Of a stretch of 61,472 nt of DNA, positions 3,389-16,388 are shown in pieces (within the stretch, counting starts at the first letter, position 1; each line of letters starts with the position of its first letter). The position numbers and the translations under genes are program-made. The stretch lies in assembly GCA_026416665.1 (NCBI GenBank), contig JAOAET010000046.1:1-61472 (forward strand), in the 5' to 3' direction. The stretch comes from Candidatus Omnitrophota bacterium. GTDB taxonomy: Bacteria > Omnitrophota > Gorgyraeia > Gygaellales > Profunditerraquicolaceae. The notes beneath the pieces were generated by a model. The model was given only the letters and a program-made list of their open reading frames with translations, had not been told where the DNA came from and made no database searches.

Positions 3389-5905
3389 ATGAAAAATAAA
3401 ATTACTAGCGTAATTATTCTTCTTACAATTATTGCCATTAATCTTTTTTATCGCCTTTATCCAGTTGACTTTCCTCAATTTAAGGAAGAGGCTCGCCTCA
3501 GGGTAAAACAAGATATCTATCGCCAGATAATTACTCAAATCAATCAAGATTATCCACAGGCGCCGTCTTATGTTAAGGCAAAAATTTTCAAAAAAGAGAT
3601 TAAAAAATATTACAAAGACAACAGCTTAAAAATAAAGCAACAAATACATACCTTATATGAAAAACTTAAAGATCGTTTTCAAGATAAAACAGGTCAAACG
3701 TATTTAATGGAGTTAGACTGTTGGCATTGGGCAAGGTATGTTGAGAATATTGAACTTCATGGCTATCCTGGAGATATTATTAAAGGTGGACAGCAGATTG
3801 ATATCTTTATGAATTATCCGGATGGTTTCTCAATATACTGGGAAAGGTTTTTTTACTATTTATGTTGGTTCCTTTACAAAATATACTCCTTTATTTTTCC
3901 TGTTTTTTTATATACTTTTCTGTTTTATTTACCACTTGGGTTTGTAGTTATTTTATTAAGCTTACTTTTCTTTTTCTGTAAACGTTTAGACAGAACTACC
4001 AACATTACTGGAATATTTACTTGTTTAGTTGTAGGTCTTGCCCCCATATTTATTCCGCGTTCCTGTGCGGGCTGGTTTGACCGAGATGTATTAAGTCTTA
4101 TTTTTCCTCTTATTATAAGTTGGCTTTATTTAGAGGCTTATCAAAAAAGAAATATTTTAGAGACAGTATCCTGGGTGATTTTTAGCGCAGCTTTCTTAGG
4201 TTTATTTTGCGCTACTTGGGTGGGGTGGTCTTTTATCCTGTTTATTATTTTAACCTATGAATTTGTAATTGTTGCAAATCTTATCTCTGAGTCTATGCAA
4301 TACAAAAATTCTAATAAAAAAGAAATCAACAGACATCTTTCGGTTATGGCAATATTTTTATTAAGCTCTGTTTTTTGGATATATCTATTTTGTGGATTAG
4401 CTCCTTTTAAAACGCTTGTAGAGCAAGTCAAAGAAGCAGTTGTTTTAAATAAACCTCTCACTAGTCAGATATGGCCAAATGTTTTCTCTACTGTAGGTGA
4501 ATTAAAAAAAGAGGATTATTTAGGAATTGCTAGGTCAGTAGGGGGGGTGTTTCTATTTATTTTGGGATTAATTAGTATGCTTGTTGTTTTCTTGAGATTA
4601 AAAAAGTACGATAATTTCAGTCAGCAATGCGCAATATTTTTGGTAGTCTGGTTTATGGTAATGTTTTTCTTTAGTTCAAGAGGAGTGCGTTTTACGATGT
4701 TTCTTACTATACCCTTAGGGATATTTATTGGATGGGGATGTTTAGTGGCGTATCGCTTTATAAGTAATCTGGCGTATAGAAAGTTGGCGATTTCTATTTT
4801 GTTGATTTTTTATATCTTGGTTGTTTTAAATATGCTAGATAAAGCAGATAATGTTGCGCGGGGGGCAATTCCTCTTATGGATGATAATTGGTATTCTATA
4901 CTTACCAGAATAAGAGATTTTACACCTAGAAGTTCAGTAATTAATTCCTGGTGGGACTATGGTGATTGGTTTAAAGTAGTGGCTAAACGAGCAGTTATTT
5001 TTGATGGCCAGACGCAAAACAGTCCGCGCGCCTTTTGGATGGCACGTGTATTTTTAACTGATTCAGAAGATGAGGCAGTGGCAATCCTTCGGATGCTAAA
5101 TAACGGCGGAATGCGTGCATATGATATTTTAGAATGTAACTTAAAAGACCCTTTTGAAGCAGTGATAACTTTGGGAAAGGTATTGCGAATGAGTAAAGAG
5201 CAAGGGAGCGAACTTCTTAATAATATTTTGCCTAAGGAAGCAGCAGAAGAAGTTACGCAGTTATTGTATATGCCACCTAAAGAAAAGGCTTATTTTATCG
5301 TTGACTACTCCATGATTGGTAAAATTACTGCAATATCTTTTCTAGGCAATTGGGATTTTATAAAGCTGTATATTGCCACAACTGGTAAAAAATTTAGTTC
5401 TCAGCAAGTTATCGATAAACTGGTTAATTGGGGTATTAAAGAAGAACAGGCAAAGCGTCTATATGAAGAAATACGCATTATTCCTCCTAGCCAGCTTGAG
5501 CAATGGCTTTCAGAACGTTATATTTTCCCTGAAATAGTCAGTCAAAAAAAGAGTACAGAAGAGGATATTGTCTTGTTTAATAACGGATTTATTTATAATC
5601 CTCAGAGGAAGACACTTTATCTCTATTCAGAAAGAGATAGATTCTACCACATTCCGATAAGTTTATTCTTAGAAGAAAAAGATTCCTTAATTGAATACCT
5701 TTACAATAATTCTACATTGGGATATTCAGCTTTTATTCAAGAAAAAAATCAGGAGCATAAATTAATTTTATTAAGTCAGCCTTTAGCCCGAAGTATGTTT
5801 GTGCAACTTTATTTTAGGGAAGGAAAAGGCCTGAAACACTTTAAGCCTTTTATCTTTCAGCAGGATGAGTCAGGATTGATCGGAGTTTATGAGGTCTTAT
5901 GGTAA
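3389..5905 (+). CDS. STT3/PglB-type oligosaccharyltransferase
   Basis: This 838-residue protein has a single N-terminal membrane segment, a long multi-spanning region (about 160-500) and a soluble C-terminal domain, the layout of the GT66 family that transfers a lipid-linked glycan to Asn in N-x-S/T. Signature residues are visible: Asp at about 110 in the first external loop (ELDCWHW), GWFDRDV with Asp231/Asp233, a TIXE-type TVGE with Glu371, WWDYGDW at 521-527 for acceptor binding, and near 639 a DYSMIGKI segment resembling the DK/MI motif. It has an unusually long basic, lysine-rich insert at about 25-105. Glycosyltransferase genes follow and pilins precede. The family call is strong; the glycan and targets are unknown. 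Confidence 0.9.
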   Translation: MKNKITSVIILLTIIAINLFYRLYPVDFPQFKEEARLRVKQDIYRQIITQINQDYPQAPSYVKAKIFKKEIKKYYKDNSLKIKQQIHTLYEKLKDRFQDKTGQTYLMELDCWHWARYVENIELHGYPGDIIKGGQQIDIFMNYPDGFSIYWERFFYYLCWFLYKIYSFIFPVFLYTFLFYLPLGFVVILLSLLFFFCKRLDRTTNITGIFTCLVVGLAPIFIPRSCAGWFDRDVLSLIFPLIISWLYLEAYQKRNILETVSWVIFSAAFLGLFCATWVGWSFILFIILTYEFVIVANLISESMQYKNSNKKEINRHLSVMAIFLLSSVFWIYLFCGLAPFKTLVEQVKEAVVLNKPLTSQIWPNVFSTVGELKKEDYLGIARSVGGVFLFILGLISMLVVFLRLKKYDNFSQQCAIFLVVWFMVMFFFSSRGVRFTMFLTIPLGIFIGWGCLVAYRFISNLAYRKLAISILLIFYILVVLNMLDKADNVARGAIPLMDDNWYSILTRIRDFTPRSSVINSWWDYGDWFKVVAKRAVIFDGQTQNSPRAFWMARVFLTDSEDEAVAILRMLNNGGMRAYDILECNLKDPFEAVITLGKVLRMSKEQGSELLNNILPKEAAEEVTQLLYMPPKEKAYFIVDYSMIGKITAISFLGNWDFIKLYIATTGKKFSSQQVIDKLVNWGIKEEQAKRLYEEIRIIPPSQLEQWLSERYIFPEIVSQKKSTEEDIVLFNNGFIYNPQRKTLYLYSERDRFYHIPISLFLEEKDSLIEYLYNNSTLGYSAFIQEKNQEHKLILLSQPLARSMFVQLYFREGKGLKHFKPFIFQQDESGLIGVYEVLW

Positions 5906-5949
5906 GAATATGATAAGTAGTACTGATGTAGAGGAAGTAAAGTAAAGCG

Positions 5950-6852
5950 ATGAACATAGCTATTCTTATTCCCTGTTATAATGAGGAAAAGACTATTGCC
6001 AAGGTAATTGAAGATTTCCGTACACAGTTGCCACAGGCAACCATCTATGTTTTTGATAATAATTCTTCTGACCGATCTGCAGAGATAGCTAGAAAAAACG
6101 GTGTACAGGTTATTTCAGTGCGAAAGCAAGGAAAGGGCTTTGTGGTTCGCAAGATGTTTGAGCAAATTGATTCAGATATTTATGTTATTGTAGATGCAGA
6201 CGATACCTACTTTGCTAAAGATGTACACAAACTTATTGAGCCGATTTTGAAAGATGAAGCAGATATGGTCATTGGTAGCAGAAGGTTTGTCTCGGATTCA
6301 GCAATGAAGAAGATAAACAAGATAGGTAATATTTTATTTTCACGTTTATTGAAGTTAGTATTTGCTCAGCCTTTAGGCGATGTTCTTTCGGGTTATCGAG
6401 CAGTGAGTAAAGAATGGGTATTAAATGTTCCTTTAGTAAGTTACGAGTTCCAAGTGGAGATGGAGATGACTTTTCAGTCTCTTTATCGTAATATGCGTAT
6501 TATAGAAGTAGAAGTAGACTACAAAGAACGACCACAGGGAAGTTTTTCCAAACTTCATCCTTTTCGTGACGGAGCATTAATTCTGGGGACCTTTATGGCA
6601 CTTATTCGGGATCTTATGCCTCTTTATACCTTTAGTTTTTTTGCATTTGTTTTGGTTGCTTTCACATTAGGTTATGGATTACATATCTATTACCTGCCCA
6701 GAGAGGCAACCCTTTTTGATAATGTTATTATTATTTCCGGTTTAATCATCTCTTTTCTACTTTTATTAATTGGTATTGTCTTGCATACTATTAATCGCCG
6801 TTTCTTTGAATTGATTGTTCTTATTCAAAGAAATAATAAACATAAGAAATAA
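5950..6852 (+). CDS. GT2 family polyprenyl-phosphate glycosyltransferase (DPM1/GtrB-like)
   Basis: The N-terminus (IPCYNEEKTI) and the DxD motif (Asp82-Ala-Asp84) identify a GT-A fold GT2 enzyme. The region after 160 (SGYRAVSKEW, then a Phe/Glu-rich segment) resembles dolichol-/polyprenyl-phosphate mannose or glucose synthases. Two C-terminal membrane helices at about 215-240 and 250-280 anchor it to the membrane. Such enzymes load a sugar onto undecaprenyl phosphate for later transfer outside the cytoplasm. Its place between the STT3 gene and a GT4 gene fits a role in building or modifying the lipid-linked glycan. Confidence 0.85.
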   Translation: MNIAILIPCYNEEKTIAKVIEDFRTQLPQATIYVFDNNSSDRSAEIARKNGVQVISVRKQGKGFVVRKMFEQIDSDIYVIVDADDTYFAKDVHKLIEPILKDEADMVIGSRRFVSDSAMKKINKIGNILFSRLLKLVFAQPLGDVLSGYRAVSKEWVLNVPLVSYEFQVEMEMTFQSLYRNMRIIEVEVDYKERPQGSFSKLHPFRDGALILGTFMALIRDLMPLYTFSFFAFVLVAFTLGYGLHIYYLPREATLFDNVIIISGLIISFLLLLIGIVLHTINRRFFELIVLIQRNNKHKK

Positions 6853-6854
6853 GG

Positions 6855-8006
6855 ATGAAGATTGCTTATGTCTATGATGGTATATATCCTTATTTGCCGG
6901 GAGGAGCTGAAAAGAGATTCTGGGAATTAGCCCGGCGGATGGTAAAAAGAGGTCACGAAGTTCATTTATTTGGAGGTGATATTGGTTTAGGTTATAACAC
7001 AATAGAAAAAGAAGGTGTATTTATCCATCCCCTTAGAGCTCCACTACCGCGTTATAATAGAAAGGGAAAAAGAAGTTTAAGCCAAGTTTTTCAGTTTAGC
7101 TTCTGTATTCTATTCTCACTTTGGAAGTATCGGTTTGATATTATTGACACCAATGCCTTTCCGTATCTGTCTTTTTTCCCGTTGAAATTCTATTCTTTTT
7201 TTACTAAAACACCACTAGTATCAACCTGGCAAGAATTGTGGAAGAAATATTGGTTTTCTTATGCGGGTTTTTTTATTGGTTTGTTCGGTATGTTTTGTGA
7301 AAGAATGGTATTATGTCTTTCTCAGAATATAGTAGTTCACTCCCATTCGGTATGGCAACAATTAAAACCTTATTGTTCTAAAAAAAAGCTGGTTCTTATA
7401 CCTAATGGAATAGATATAGATTATATTGAAGAAGTTAAGCCAGCCGGTAGTTTTTATGATATCATTTTTGTAGGTCGACTAATAAAAGAGAAAAATATAG
7501 ATATTCTGTTAAAAGCATTTGCTTTGGTAGTAAAACAACGGTCGGAAAGTAGCTGTTTAATAGTAGGGGCTGGACCTGAACAGAGTGCCTTAGAGCAATT
7601 AGCAGAGGAACTAGAAATAAAAGACAGAGTTAATTTAAGGCATTTTAGTGATTATAAAGATGTCATTGCCGCAATGAAAGCAGCTAAGGTTTTTGTGTTT
7701 TTGTCTATCCGAGAAGGGTTTGGTATTGCGGTTATTGAGGCAATGGCAGCAGGTCTACCAGTAATTGCAGTACATGCTCCACTTAATGCCTCAGCAGAGC
7801 TTATTGATGATTCAAAAAATGGTTTTCTTGTCTGTTTAGAGCCAGAACAGATAGCCCAAAAGATATTAGAATTATTGGAAGATGAAGAAAAAAGAAAAAG
7901 GTTTGGCCTTTGGGCAAAGGAAAAAGTAAAAAAATTTGATTTCTCAGTTATAGTTGAACAGACAGAGCAGTTGTATAAACAGGTAAGTTTACATAAAAGA
8001 AATTAG
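6855..8006 (+). CDS. GT4 family glycosyltransferase
   Basis: It is a GT-B fold retaining glycosyltransferase of the usual length (383 residues). The N-terminal domain begins with an acceptor-side Gly-rich motif (PGGAEKRFWEL). The C-terminal donor domain starts with FVGRLIKEKNIDILLKA at about 206 and has the E-x7-E signature in REGFGIAVIEAMAAGLPVIA at about 285-305. It starts 2 bases after the GT2 stop, so it is co-translated with it. Probable role: adding a nucleotide-activated sugar to a lipid-linked or surface glycan. The sugar cannot be told from sequence. Confidence 0.88.
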   Translation: MKIAYVYDGIYPYLPGGAEKRFWELARRMVKRGHEVHLFGGDIGLGYNTIEKEGVFIHPLRAPLPRYNRKGKRSLSQVFQFSFCILFSLWKYRFDIIDTNAFPYLSFFPLKFYSFFTKTPLVSTWQELWKKYWFSYAGFFIGLFGMFCERMVLCLSQNIVVHSHSVWQQLKPYCSKKKLVLIPNGIDIDYIEEVKPAGSFYDIIFVGRLIKEKNIDILLKAFALVVKQRSESSCLIVGAGPEQSALEQLAEELEIKDRVNLRHFSDYKDVIAAMKAAKVFVFLSIREGFGIAVIEAMAAGLPVIAVHAPLNASAELIDDSKNGFLVCLEPEQIAQKILELLEDEEKRKRFGLWAKEKVKKFDFSVIVEQTEQLYKQVSLHKRN

Positions 8007-9073: not shown

Positions 9074-10174
9074 ATGAATAGACGTAAATTGTTAAAACTA
9101 ATTTTTATTATTAGTTTAATTTATTATTCAACTACAAATAATGCTATTTCAATAGAGAAACAGGTTGAAGAAAAAGCGCTTTTTTGGGAAAGACTAAAAA
9201 GTAACTTTGTGCAATGCAAGCTATGTCCACGCTACTGTATAATTTTGCCAGGTAAAAGAGGTTATTGTCGTGTGCGTGAAAATCAAAATGGAGAACTATT
9301 TGCCCTCTCTTATGGTAAACCTGTTGCCTTGCATGTTGACCCGATAGAGAAAAAGCCATTTTTTCACTTTTTTCCGGGCACAACGGTTTTATCTTTAGCC
9401 ACCGCGGGTTGTAATCTACATTGCAAATTCTGTCAAAATTGGCAGATTTCTCAGAGTTCTGTAGAAGAATTAGATTATCAAAAGTTAACTGCGGAAGAGA
9501 TAATTAGACAAGCAAAGTCGGTCCATACACCCAGTATTGCCTTTACCTATACTGAACCGACTGTATTTTTTGAATATATGTTAGAAATAGCCAAAAAAGC
9601 AAAGGAAAAAGGTTTTTATACCTGTATGCATTCAAATGGCTATATTAACCCAGAGCCACTACGGCAATTAGCCAAATACCTTGATGCAGCTAATATTGAC
9701 CTTAAAGGGTTTTCTGAACAATATTATTCCAAAATCTGTGAAGGAAGTCTTGCACCTGTTTTAGCCTCTTTAAAGATACTAAAGGAAGAAGGAGTCCATC
9801 TTGAGATTACCAATCTTTTAATTTCCGGTTATAATGATGACCGTAAGACTTTACGCAAGATGTGTTTGTGGATTAAAGAACAGTTAGGAGAAGATACACC
9901 TTTACATTTTAGTCGGGCATATCCGATGTATAAACTTCCTGGGATTGTGCCTACTCCGGTAGAATTATTAGAAGAAGCCCAGCGTATTGCCTATGAGTGT
10001 GGGTTAAAGTATGTATATATTGGTAATGTCCCAGGGCATTTTGGTGAGCATACGGTTTGTCCTGAATGTAAAAAGATTATTATAAAACGTATAGGCTATA
10101 CGATAAAAGAGATGCACATAAAAGATGGAAGGTGTGCCTTTTGCAGATGCACTATTCATGGTAGATGGGAATAA
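9074..10174 (+). CDS. amrS: AmmeMemoRadiSam system radical SAM enzyme (AmrS) with N-terminal export or anchor signal
   Basis: It is a radical SAM enzyme with Cys113-x3-Cys117-x2-Cys120 for the SAM-binding [4Fe-4S] cluster, preceded by a four-cysteine N-terminal motif (Cys48, 51, 55, 65) and followed by a C-terminal CxxC plus CxxC zinc-like knuckle. These are hallmarks of the AmrS family, which co-occurs with Memo and AMMECR1 and whose reaction is unknown. Unusually it begins MNRRKLLK then about 12 very hydrophobic residues before the conserved domain: RRKLLK resembles a twin-arginine motif, though the stretch could be a plain membrane anchor. Its stop overlaps the start of the Memo-AMMECR1 gene (TAATG). 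Confidence 0.88.
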   Translation: MNRRKLLKLIFIISLIYYSTTNNAISIEKQVEEKALFWERLKSNFVQCKLCPRYCIILPGKRGYCRVRENQNGELFALSYGKPVALHVDPIEKKPFFHFFPGTTVLSLATAGCNLHCKFCQNWQISQSSVEELDYQKLTAEEIIRQAKSVHTPSIAFTYTEPTVFFEYMLEIAKKAKEKGFYTCMHSNGYINPEPLRQLAKYLDAANIDLKGFSEQYYSKICEGSLAPVLASLKILKEEGVHLEITNLLISGYNDDRKTLRKMCLWIKEQLGEDTPLHFSRAYPMYKLPGIVPTPVELLEEAQRIAYECGLKYVYIGNVPGHFGEHTVCPECKKIIIKRIGYTIKEMHIKDGRCAFCRCTIHGRWE

Positions 10175-11679
10175 TGAGAAAGATAATCTGTATTTTGTTT
10201 ATACTGGTATATTTTTTACAACTTGCTTGGGCAGATGAAGATGTGCGTATTCCTGTTGTAGATGGGATTTTTTATCCTAAAGATAAAGAAGAATTAAAAC
10301 TGAAGATAGAGGATTTATTAAAAAATAGTAACCAAGAAAAAGAATCTCTCACAGAGATATTTGCGGTTATAGTTCCACATGCAGGTTATACTTATTCTGG
10401 ACAGACCGCTGCTTACTGCTATGGACAATTACGCGCAAGAAAATACAAGACAGTAGTAGTTTTGGCTCCAGTTCACTACCACACCTTAAGAGGAGTAAGT
10501 GTTTGGCCAAAAGGGAAATTTCGAACACCTTTAGGAGATATCTTAATAGATAATGAATTTGCAAGTAAACTCTTAAATAAAACACCGGTTATTTCTATAA
10601 GCAAAGAAGTCTTTGATAGAGAACACACTTTAGAAGTGCAACTGCCTTTTTTGCAGAGTGTGCTTAGTGATTTTAAACTTGTGCCAATTATGGTAGGAGA
10701 ATGTTCTTATTCTGACTGTCAAAAAATTTGTCATTTTTTAAAAGAGGCAATAGGTCAGAGAAAAGATGTTTTAGTAGTTGCTTCCACAGATATGTATCAT
10801 GGTTATGATTGGCAACAGGCAGATGTTGTTGACCGTCTTACCTTATCCTATTTGCAGACAATGGATGTAAAAGGTCTTTACGATGGTCTAATCCAAAACA
10901 AACTACAACTCTGCGGTGGGTATGCAGTGGTAATTGCTATGCTATTGGCTAAAGAATTAGCTTATAACCAAGCACAATTAATACATTATACTAATTCTGC
11001 AGAAGTAACCAAACAAAAAATTGTTGGACAGTGGACAGTAGGTTACGGTAGCGTTATAATAGGAAAAAAAGAGACAAAACAGCCAGATTCAAAAACTCTG
11101 CAAACACAAGAGGTAGATATGTTGTTAAATAATCAACAAAAAAAACGACTACTACAAATAGCACGACAAACTATTGAAGAATATTTAAGAACACATCGGA
11201 TTTTAGAATTTGAAGAGCAAGATGCAACACTTAATAAAAATATGGGGGCATTTGTTACCTTGCACAAATTTGGGCAATTGCGTGGCTGTATAGGAAATTT
11301 ATCAGCAAATAAACCTTTGTATTTAACTGTTCGTGATATGGCAATTGAGGCAGCAACGGGTGACCCGCGTTTTACACCAGTAAATACCAAGGAGTTATCT
11401 GATATTGAAATAGAAATATCTGTTCTGTCTCCCCTTAAACGAGTGGTTTCTGCTGACGAAATTAAAATACCTGGTCACGGGGTATTAGTACGTAGGGGAT
11501 TTTATAGCGGAGTATTCTTGCCACAAGTTGCTTCAGAGACAGGTTGGTCTAAAGAGGAATTTCTGGATAACCTTTGTGCACATAAGGCAGGCCTTCCTGC
11601 GGACGCCTGGAAAGATCCATCTACCGAACTTTACATCTTCACTGCTGAGGTATTTTCAGAGAAAAATTTTGATAAATAA
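10174..11679 (+). CDS. Memo-AMMECR1 fusion (AmmeMemoRadiSam proteins B and A) with signal peptide
   Basis: Two domains are fused: a Memo domain (about 25-300) and an AMMECR1 domain (about 320-500). The three Memo site residues are kept: His69 in PHAGYTYSG, His101 in APVHYH and Cys247 in LCGGYAV. The AMMECR1 signature LRGCIG lies at 369-374. The start at 10174 (TAATG overlap with amrS) gives a textbook Sec signal peptide: MRK, a hydrophobic core and AWA before Asp21. ATG 10165 would only add three residues. An exported Memo is unusual; eukaryotic Memo is cytosolic. Tight coupling with amrS and the signals on both suggest they act together outside the cytoplasm. Confidence 0.9.
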   Translation: MRKIICILFILVYFLQLAWADEDVRIPVVDGIFYPKDKEELKLKIEDLLKNSNQEKESLTEIFAVIVPHAGYTYSGQTAAYCYGQLRARKYKTVVVLAPVHYHTLRGVSVWPKGKFRTPLGDILIDNEFASKLLNKTPVISISKEVFDREHTLEVQLPFLQSVLSDFKLVPIMVGECSYSDCQKICHFLKEAIGQRKDVLVVASTDMYHGYDWQQADVVDRLTLSYLQTMDVKGLYDGLIQNKLQLCGGYAVVIAMLLAKELAYNQAQLIHYTNSAEVTKQKIVGQWTVGYGSVIIGKKETKQPDSKTLQTQEVDMLLNNQQKKRLLQIARQTIEEYLRTHRILEFEEQDATLNKNMGAFVTLHKFGQLRGCIGNLSANKPLYLTVRDMAIEAATGDPRFTPVNTKELSDIEIEISVLSPLKRVVSADEIKIPGHGVLVRRGFYSGVFLPQVASETGWSKEEFLDNLCAHKAGLPADAWKDPSTELYIFTAEVFSEKNFDK

Positions 11680-11726
11680 TTTTCTTAATAAAATTTTAAA
11701 TTTTTAATTATCTACATTAGCTGCCA

Positions 11727-12362
11727 ATGATTTCATTATTAGGTATTTTTATAGCAGGGATAATTTTTGCTAGTGGTCCTTGTTTAGCAAGTTGTGGTGC
11801 ATTGTTAGTAAGTATGATTTCTGGGACAGCTAAAACTACCTCTGAGGCATTATTTTTTTATACCATATTTAGCCTTTCACGCATACTTGGTTATTTGGTT
11901 ATAGGTATCTTAGTATTTTACCTTGGGCAGATAACTATTAACCGTTTATTAAATTTTAATTTTAATCTACTGGCTTCAGCTTTTTTGGGAATAATTGCAA
12001 TCTTAATGCTTCTGGGAAGAAACATTACCTTAAAGGCCTTTGTTACTGTTCAGAAGATTTTGCTTAAAGGTATTATTTTTAGTCCATTTTCCTTAGGGCT
12101 ATTGTATGGTTTTTTGCCCTGTGTTCCTTTTTTAGGATTTATTTCATATCTTGGACTTATCTCTAAGGACATCAAAGAACTTTTAGGAAGAATCCTTATA
12201 TTTGGCTTAGGAACATTTTGTTCTCCTTTATTGTTATTAACTATCCTGGTGGGCTCAATAGGGAAATTTATTCGAAGACAAAGAGTTTCGGTCCAGCGGG
12301 TAATTGAGATAGTAGGCGGCATAATTCTTTTAATTTTGGCTATCGGCCTTTTAGTAAAGTAA
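11727..12362 (+). CDS. CcdA/DsbD-like membrane protein (sulfite exporter TauE/SafE, DsbD_2 type)
   Basis: This 211-residue protein has about six membrane helices. Cys19 and Cys23 lie in helix 1 (FASGPCLASCG) and Cys132 in helix 4 (GFLPCVPFLG), the two internally repeated, proline-flanked cysteine positions of CcdA/DsbD. Family members pass electrons from cytoplasmic thioredoxin to thiol proteins on the far side of the membrane; some relatives are called TauE/SafE-like. Its place 47 bases after two apparently exported AmmeMemoRadiSam genes suggests, by inference, that it feeds reductant to them. A role in general thiol-disulphide exchange or metal handling is equally possible. Confidence 0.75.
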   Translation: MISLLGIFIAGIIFASGPCLASCGALLVSMISGTAKTTSEALFFYTIFSLSRILGYLVIGILVFYLGQITINRLLNFNFNLLASAFLGIIAILMLLGRNITLKAFVTVQKILLKGIIFSPFSLGLLYGFLPCVPFLGFISYLGLISKDIKELLGRILIFGLGTFCSPLLLLTILVGSIGKFIRRQRVSVQRVIEIVGGIILLILAIGLLVK

Positions 12363-14653: not shown

Positions 14654-15577
14654 ATGGGCTTAGCAATTTCTACTTCCTGGAATGCCTTCCGACATACAGG
14701 CGCCCTATCTATTGTCTCTGAGATTGTGGCGCTTAATTTTTTTGAGATTGAGTTAAGTTTTAATCTTTCTTATGAAATAGTTGAACAGTTTGCGGGACTA
14801 GTTGAACGTAAAAAAATACAAGTGGTAAGTCTTCACAACTTTTGTCCTTATCCCGAAGAATTACCTCGTGAGCGTGCTCTTCCAGATTGTTTTTCATTGG
14901 CTTCTCCTAATCAAGAGGAAAGAAAACATGCAGTACAATTAACTAAACGCACGATAGATACGGCTGCAAGTTTGGCAGCAAAATGTGTAGTTTTACATCT
15001 GGGGAGAGTGGAGATTCCTGATTATACAAAGGAACTTATTCTCTTGTATGAGCAGGGGCAAAAAGACAGTTTACAGTTTAAACAGATACGCAGTGATATC
15101 CAAATAGAACGCGCCCAAAATAGTTCTATATACTTCGAACAGGCATTGGTCAGCCTTGATGAATTACAGGAGTATGCCAGCAGAAAGGATATTTTATTAG
15201 CGGTGGAGACGCGTTTTTATTATCGGGAGATACCCAATTTAGAAGAGCTCAAAATTATTCTCCAACGCTTCAGAAATTCGAATGTTCGTTATTGGCATGA
15301 TACAGGTCATGCCCAAGTAATGGAGAATTTAGGATTCTACAGACACCTTGACTTTTTAGAGGTCGGTTCTCAAGCTTTAGCAGGGATGCATTTACATAAT
15401 TTAATTGGTTGTCAGGACCATCAACCACCCCATAAGGGTATATTAGATTTTGGTTTTTTAGTTGATTATTTTTCCAAAGACACCTTAAAAGTTATGGAAG
15501 TGCATCATCCCGCAACAGCAGAAGAAATTCAAGAAAGTAAAAAAAAGTTAGAGGAGTTATTCCGTGCCAAGCTTTAA
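14654..15577 (+). CDS. Sugar phosphate isomerase/epimerase-like TIM-barrel protein (AP_endonuc_2 family)
   Basis: The 307-residue protein has the xylose isomerase-like TIM-barrel pattern: a start strand (LAISTSWNAFRH), KCVVLHLGRVE at about 114-124 and a VETRFYYREIPN strand near 184-195, then WHDTGHA with metal-binding His and Asp around 215. These residues normally bind one or two divalent metals. Such proteins isomerise sugars or act as endonuclease IV-like enzymes; substrate is not predictable. It starts 3 bases after rpsU and overlaps the next Memo gene by 14 bases. Confidence 0.75.
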   Translation: MGLAISTSWNAFRHTGALSIVSEIVALNFFEIELSFNLSYEIVEQFAGLVERKKIQVVSLHNFCPYPEELPRERALPDCFSLASPNQEERKHAVQLTKRTIDTAASLAAKCVVLHLGRVEIPDYTKELILLYEQGQKDSLQFKQIRSDIQIERAQNSSIYFEQALVSLDELQEYASRKDILLAVETRFYYREIPNLEELKIILQRFRNSNVRYWHDTGHAQVMENLGFYRHLDFLEVGSQALAGMHLHNLIGCQDHQPPHKGILDFGFLVDYFSKDTLKVMEVHHPATAEEIQESKKKLEELFRAKL

Positions 15578-16388
15578 CATACGCCAACCAACAGTCGCAG
15601 GGTCATTTTATCCTGAACAATCTAACGTTCTTGTAAGACAGCTACAGCAACTTATCCCCAAGCAGATTAAATTGCGTCAGTGTATTGGTTGTATGTTGCC
15701 ACACGCAGGTTATATGTATTCAGGAAAAGTAGCTGCATTGACCATCAGTTGTATAAAGATACCCAAGACAGTAATACTCTTAGGTCCAAAGCACCACGAA
15801 CTTGGACAAGCTTATTTTAGCATATGGGCAAAAGGAGCTTGGAAGACACCACTAGGAGAGGTTTTGATAGATGAGCAGTTCACCCAGCAACTACTTAGTG
15901 AAAGTGGCCTTTTCTTAGAAGATATCCGTCCACATCTACCGGAACATTCCTTAGAGGTACAGCTTCCTTTTTTACAATATTTGAGAGCGGATGTGCAGAT
16001 TGTGCCAATTGCTGTCTCAAGCCCACAAACAAGCTATTTAGAAAAAGCAGCTGAAAAACTTTCCTATGTTATTAAAAATACCCAAAAAAAAGAAGAGTAC
16101 TTAATTTTGGCCAGTTCTGATATGAACCACTTTCAGTCACAGGAAATTACTAAGAAGAAAGACAGTTATGCGATAGAGAAGATACTTAGTCTTGACCCAT
16201 TGGGTCTGCTTGACGTAGTTAAACGATATGATATATCAATGTGTGGTTTTGAGCCAGTAGCTTTGATGCTAATGACTGCTAGGATACTAGGTGCACATCA
16301 TGCAGAGTTAGTCAGTTATGCTACAAGTGGTGATATAACTGGTGATTATTCCGAAGTAGTAGCATATGCCGGTGTAATTGTATATTAA
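15564..16388 (+). CDS. amrB: AmmeMemoRadiSam protein B (Memo), second copy without signal peptide
   Basis: This is a stand-alone Memo protein of 274 residues with the conserved site residues His47 (LPHAGYMYSG), His77/His78 (GPKHH) and Cys227 (SMCGFEP). It starts at a GTG with GAGGAG 8 bases upstream and has no signal peptide, unlike the Memo-AMMECR1 fusion at 10174, so it should be cytoplasmic. No AmrS or AMMECR1 gene lies directly beside it. The family belongs to the LigB-like dioxygenase superfamily, but its biochemical role is not established. Confidence 0.9.
   Translation: MPSFNIRQPTVAGSFYPEQSNVLVRQLQQLIPKQIKLRQCIGCMLPHAGYMYSGKVAALTISCIKIPKTVILLGPKHHELGQAYFSIWAKGAWKTPLGEVLIDEQFTQQLLSESGLFLEDIRPHLPEHSLEVQLPFLQYLRADVQIVPIAVSSPQTSYLEKAAEKLSYVIKNTQKKEEYLILASSDMNHFQSQEITKKKDSYAIEKILSLDPLGLLDVVKRYDISMCGFEPVALMLMTARILGAHHAELVSYATSGDITGDYSEVVAYAGVIVY

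Follow-up and report, generated by a model that had tools for sequence, protein, structure and literature searches.

The closest described counterpart of the genes analyzed here is AmmeMemoRadiSam, a trio of AMMECR1 (TIGR04335), Memo (TIGR04336) and radical-SAM (TIGR04337) proteins for which we know of no function; two of the three have human relatives, and the system was rarely named in the literature that we searched. Radical-SAM enzymes are thought to be confined to the cytoplasm, the site of SAM, reductant and Fe-S assembly, and a literature search covering few subscription papers or preprints returned no report of exported, periplasmic or Tat-type members. The high-scoring TIGR04337 proteins that we sampled in the phylum (about 600 bits) are signal-less and have no DsbD_2 neighbor. 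The window analyzed in this work, a stretch of 61,472 nucleotides from a Candidatus Omnitrophota bacterium, encodes the same three families, but with three differences: predicted export signals on both proteins, the fusion of Memo to AMMECR1, and a linked DsbD_2 gene. Taking the signal-like N-termini, the conservation and the gene linkage together, we infer that positions 9074-12362 probably encode an extracytoplasmic AmmeMemoRadiSam module in which DsbD_2 would keep thiols reduced, the catalytic electron coming from another carrier.

The draft genome comprises 59 contigs that total 1.6 Mb. Three plus-strand genes form the module, the first two sharing 10 bases (10165-10174), and both the coordinates and the families named in a preliminary description of this DNA were confirmed, the latter by profile scores. 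For comparison, TIGR04337 was searched across the phylum and exceeded its cut-off in 198 of 237 genomes; together with named public genomes these gave about 200 loci and 195 distinct proteins, hereafter the relatives. The features discussed below are as follows.

9074..10174, plus strand: AmmeMemoRadiSam radical-SAM enzyme, 366 aa, signal-bearing (TIGR04337, Pfam Radical_SAM, AlphaFold)
9074..9160, plus strand: predicted N-terminal signal peptide or signal-anchor of this enzyme, residues 1-29 (sequence, model, layout in relatives)
9410..9433, plus strand: radical-SAM CxxxCxxC motif, Cys113/Cys117/Cys120 (invariant in 195/195 relatives)
10165..11679, plus strand: Memo-AMMECR1 fusion, 504 aa, predicted exported (TIGR04336, 259 bits; TIGR04335, 186 bits)
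10165..10233, plus strand: predicted Sec signal peptide of the fusion, ending in AWA before DE (sequence; signals of partners in relatives)
11727..12362, plus strand: DsbD_2 (CcdA-like) polytopic membrane protein, 211 aa, Cys19/Cys23/Cys132 (Pfam PF13386)
15564..16388, plus strand: second, stand-alone Memo with no signal peptide (TIGR04336, 292 bits)

The radical-SAM protein scored 373.9 bits against TIGR04337 (curated cut-off 220) and 86 bits against Pfam Radical_SAM. Its AlphaFold model (pLDDT 91) best matched PflA with AdoMet in the PDB (3cb8, E 1.5e-14). This closest solved fold shares CxxxCxxC and Asp-x-Lys with the window enzyme, although PflA is cytoplasmic, is about 16% identical and is without the extra four-Cys sites at both ends. 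CxxxCxxC was invariant in all relatives, including every exported form, and the residues aligned with the Asp-x-Lys region of PflA were also kept in exported forms: Glu161 and Lys211 in all, Asp209 in all but one. Replacement of Glu161 by Asp occurred solely among signal-less forms. Eight more cysteines beyond CxxxCxxC were conserved in nearly all members, and the resulting eleven correspond to two four-Cys sites plus the cluster ligands. With the SAM site intact, the exported forms appear to have kept their enzyme function.

The enzyme begins with MNRRKLLKLIFIISLIYYSTTNNAIS, in which a positive n-region is followed by an uncharged hydrophobic stretch; in the model, a lone helix (3-22) and a low-confidence linker (23-29) precede the folded core. 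The preliminary description had read this N-terminus as Tat-like or as an anchor. The hydrophobic signal or anchor was supported, the Tat route was not: the Tat-like motif NRRKLLK is not kept in close relatives, as the nearest ones, L218 and L095, have no twin-arginine motif and L096 has only MRR at its start. The closest relatives show plain MK/MR Sec-like signals and, because the clade of the window enzyme on the tree is Sec-like, its RR motif is probably incidental. Tat was thus rejected as its leading export route. The suggested check for tat genes did find TatC in this genome (212.6 bits, profile search).

We then sorted the N-termini of the 195 relatives with a hydropathy and motif rule (not SignalP or DeepTMHMM calls), corrected by eye at about 20 loci (missed clear Tat motifs, the window itself, the frame-broken L038 and the doubtful L208), and obtained three classes: Sec-like (96), Tat-type (44) and signal-less (55). 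Signals were thus present in 140 of the 195 proteins, from more than 10 phyla, and the N-terminal extension is conserved in relatives as had been anticipated. Applied to controls, this hydropathy scan was positive for none of 30 neighboring RsmE proteins and for 4 of 195 internal pseudo-N-termini. Among the Sec-like relatives, mean net charge fell from +2.1 ahead of the hydrophobic stretch to +0.1 beyond it, a pattern that points to an N-in/C-out orientation with the core outside. The linker after the signal was conserved among full-length forms.

Tat-type members, with motifs such as SRREFL, TRRDFLK and TRREFIK, came from Thermodesulfobacteriota, Myxococcota, Planctomycetota, Chloroflexota, Calditrichota, Acidobacteriota, Omnitrophota and two archaeal lineages, and the true ones lie mostly outside the lineage of the window enzyme. 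TatC was found in 21 of the 22 genomes with Tat-type forms, and a tatC-like gene lies inside the same locus in L053, L071, L076 and L164. Desulfoferrobacter suflitae DRH4 (L131) encodes a Tat-type radical-SAM protein beside a Memo-AMMECR1 predicted to be exported; DRH4 is a named strain, not a metagenome bin, which opens the question to work in culture.

In the second gene of the window, the Memo and AMMECR1 profiles both matched a single chain above cut-off. The N-terminus, MGIMRKIICILFILVYFLQLAWA followed by DE, was positive in the hydropathy scan and has a cleavage site after AWA, which agrees with the Sec signal peptide described previously. Export of both the radical-SAM enzyme and the fusion, as first proposed, is predicted here too, with signals that recur in relatives: 39 of 45 Memo partners at Sec-like loci passed the same scan, and nearly all Memo-AMMECR1 partners in relatives had Sec or lipoprotein signals. 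MEMO1 binds iron and copper via His49, His81 and Cys244 (PMC11081632). The metal residues are intact when the fusion is aligned to MEMO1; the previously listed His69, His101 and Cys247 are counted from the ATG at 10174 and become His72, His104 and Cys250 from the ATG at 10165.

Two Memo genes were found in the genome, the fusion and the gene at 15564-16388, and the sole AMMECR1 found is that of the predicted exported fusion. The stand-alone Memo is likely a cytoplasmic counterpart. As another contig encodes a signal-less radical-SAM paralogue (351 bits against TIGR04337), one cell appears to hold inside and outside versions of both the enzyme and Memo. At 12 loci, a signal-less radical-SAM gene lies next to a Memo protein predicted to be exported, which suggests that the two need not always share a compartment. 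Signal-less radical-SAM genes beside a Memo-AMMECR1 with a Sec or lipoprotein signal were noted at L067, L069, L196, L211, L222, L223 and similar loci. Between mtaB and the stand-alone Memo, the gene at 14654-15577 matched CbiR and IolO models only weakly, with scores under the cut-offs.

The third gene matched Pfam DsbD_2 (PF13386) with 55 bits (cut-off 24.9). The previously listed Cys19, Cys23 and Cys132 proved right, the three cysteines being invariant in 45 aligned relatives and also in 70 aligned neighbors. Compared with described CcdA/DsbD carriers, the protein has one more invariant cysteine close to the first; beside its gene we recognized no thioredoxin-like partner, and a Foldseek search of the PDB with its model (pLDDT 83.5) gave no match under E 0.001. 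For loci whose downstream sequence extended for 2.6 kb or more, we counted DsbD_2 genes within 2.6 kb: they were present at 62 of 87 Sec-like loci but at none of the 37 Tat-type and none of the 48 signal-less ones (Fisher p about 1e-26, a statistic that ignores relatedness). The contrast survived thinning of the set, with p about 1e-10 at 70% identity and about 0.001 at 60% (two later-Tat loci were then counted as Sec). The occurrence of the DsbD_2 neighbor is therefore not random, at 62/87 Sec-like loci versus 0/85 Tat-type or signal-less ones.

Other redox partners were seen in relatives. In three Tat-type members, CxxCH haem-c motifs lie between signal and core. In L057, the radical-SAM domain is fused behind an FMN_bind/Fer4_5 protein with seven predicted transmembrane helices, and the predicted topology leaves the enzyme domain outside. 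In three genomes, DsbD_2 is fused to FMN_bind/Fer4_5 domains beside the radical-SAM enzyme. A flavinylation survey describes extracytosolic DsbD and NapH-like conduits and names no radical-SAM partner (PMC8238504). The FMN_bind/Fer4_5 and DsbD modules in L057, L132, L136 and L161 resemble those systems in carrying electrons outward, whereas the DsbD of the survey is PF02683 (PMC8238504) and the window locus has no adjacent FMN_bind gene; the one FMN_bind protein of the window genome is encoded on another contig. An FMN_bind/Fer4_5 membrane protein also adjoins about 18 signal-less radical-SAM genes (e.g., L058:6196-7587), in an arrangement that resembles a split L057 fusion.

According to the model that we favor, the radical-SAM enzyme would cross the membrane by its N-terminal Sec-like signal or signal-anchor and the Memo-AMMECR1 fusion would be secreted via its cleavable Sec signal, so that both act on the outside of this membrane. 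DsbD_2 would move thiol electrons outward from the cytoplasm, its most likely job being to hold the eleven conserved cysteines in reduced form and thereby allow the metal sites to assemble and persist. Tat is the usual export route for Fe-S enzymes, which it carries in folded form, and we know of no precedent for a Sec substrate with as many as three metal sites. If DsbD_2 guards thiols during the unfolded Sec crossing, this would explain its absence from Tat-type loci, where the enzyme would be exported folded. The low-potential electron for SAM cleavage would probably come from a different membrane carrier, for example an Rnf/NosR-type FMN/4Fe-4S protein.

The preliminary description had suggested that the CcdA-like protein could supply electrons, which would make DsbD_2 itself the direct donor for SAM cleavage. 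The strong gene linkage and the invariant cysteines agree with this proposal, and the link to a redox module, fused or adjacent in relatives, still stands. However, DsbD/CcdA relays work near the thioredoxin potential, far above what a radical-SAM [4Fe-4S] cluster requires, and no DsbD_2 lies near Tat-type members. A part as catalytic electron source is thus doubtful, thiol keeping is the more likely role, and we regard direct donation as very unlikely. Alternatively, the exported module could handle metal, with DsbD_2 transporting copper or iron for the Memo metal site and the radical-SAM enzyme maturing it. The MEMO1 iron/copper residues (PMC11081632) are intact in the fusion, and DsbD_2 gave a weak hit to the ArsG efflux permease model (26 bits, far under the cut-off of 200). 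Such a function is nonetheless improbable, as many Sec-like loci have an adjacent DsbD_2 with no Memo gene nearby, and DsbD_2 is fused to FMN_bind/Fer4_5 beside the enzyme in the three genomes mentioned above. It could also be argued that the DsbD_2 link is inherited synteny with no functional meaning. Part of the linkage is indeed conserved synteny that includes the housekeeping genes rsmE and mtaB, which follow in the same order at most rSAM-Memo-DsbD_2 loci. Signal type and DsbD_2 were both clustered by lineage in a tree of 109 proteins, so that the independent contrasts, with about one agreeing pair and none opposing, are too few to test the link. Synteny as the whole explanation still seems unlikely to us, because the position of DsbD_2 varies: it may directly follow the module, be separated by one gene that may or may not be Memo, lie upstream, or lie upstream as a fusion to FMN_bind/Fer4_5, and it also occurs at loci that lack Memo. 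With two DsbD_2 genes in the window genome, a given locus would have one nearby by chance in about 1% of cases or fewer.

The remaining alternative is that the radical-SAM enzyme is cytoplasmic, either held at the inner face by an N-out anchor or made as a short form from Val47, and that only Memo-AMMECR1 is exported. The codon of Val47 is GTG, and signal-less forms begin near that point; all known radical-SAM chemistry and SAM are cytoplasmic; and the 12 mixed loci already pair a signal-less enzyme with a Memo predicted to be exported. Against this reading stand the charge pattern of the Sec-like relatives, positive before and neutral after the hydrophobic stretch, the Tat-type signals of 44 members, the CxxCH motifs and seven-helix fusion that put the domain outside, and the conserved post-signal linker of full-length forms. 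On balance we consider a cytoplasmic enzyme unlikely and favor the exported module with DsbD_2 as thiol keeper.

If this model is correct, radical-SAM chemistry would take place outside the cytoplasm, as a rare or even the first such case. Given how widespread the exported form would be, both SAM and low-potential electrons would have to be present there; we know of no extracytoplasmic SAM source. The Memo/AMMECR1/radical-SAM trio would also gain a testable location and redox partners. A broader proposal, which we make only tentatively, is that many anaerobic bacteria, and archaea in some cases, run a whole SAM-dependent radical chemistry beyond the cytoplasm. It would combine exported radical-SAM and Memo-AMMECR1 proteins, dedicated transmembrane electron carriers and a recurrent 14-helix membrane protein, whose spermidine-synthase-like domain, of a type with SAM-like ligands, is predicted to face outside and might supply or use SAM.

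As a separate observation, a 14-helix protein is encoded within 2.7 kb of the radical-SAM gene at 82 of the 195 loci (e.g., L083:6668-8962, L053:1139-3418 and L089:2575-4842; the gene lies outside the window). It consists of a spermidine-synthase-like domain flanked by seven helices on each side, and the charge pattern of 77 aligned copies places this domain outside (predicted). At up to 16 Sec-like loci, mostly from Omnitrophota relatives, genes resembling type IV pilins or pseudopilins by eye lie just upstream (e.g., L043, L035, L044 and L096). Upstream of the module in the window itself, positions 3389-8006 encode a large polytopic membrane protein and two glycosyltransferases, the first of these proteins resembling, by eye, an STT3-type oligosaccharyltransferase.
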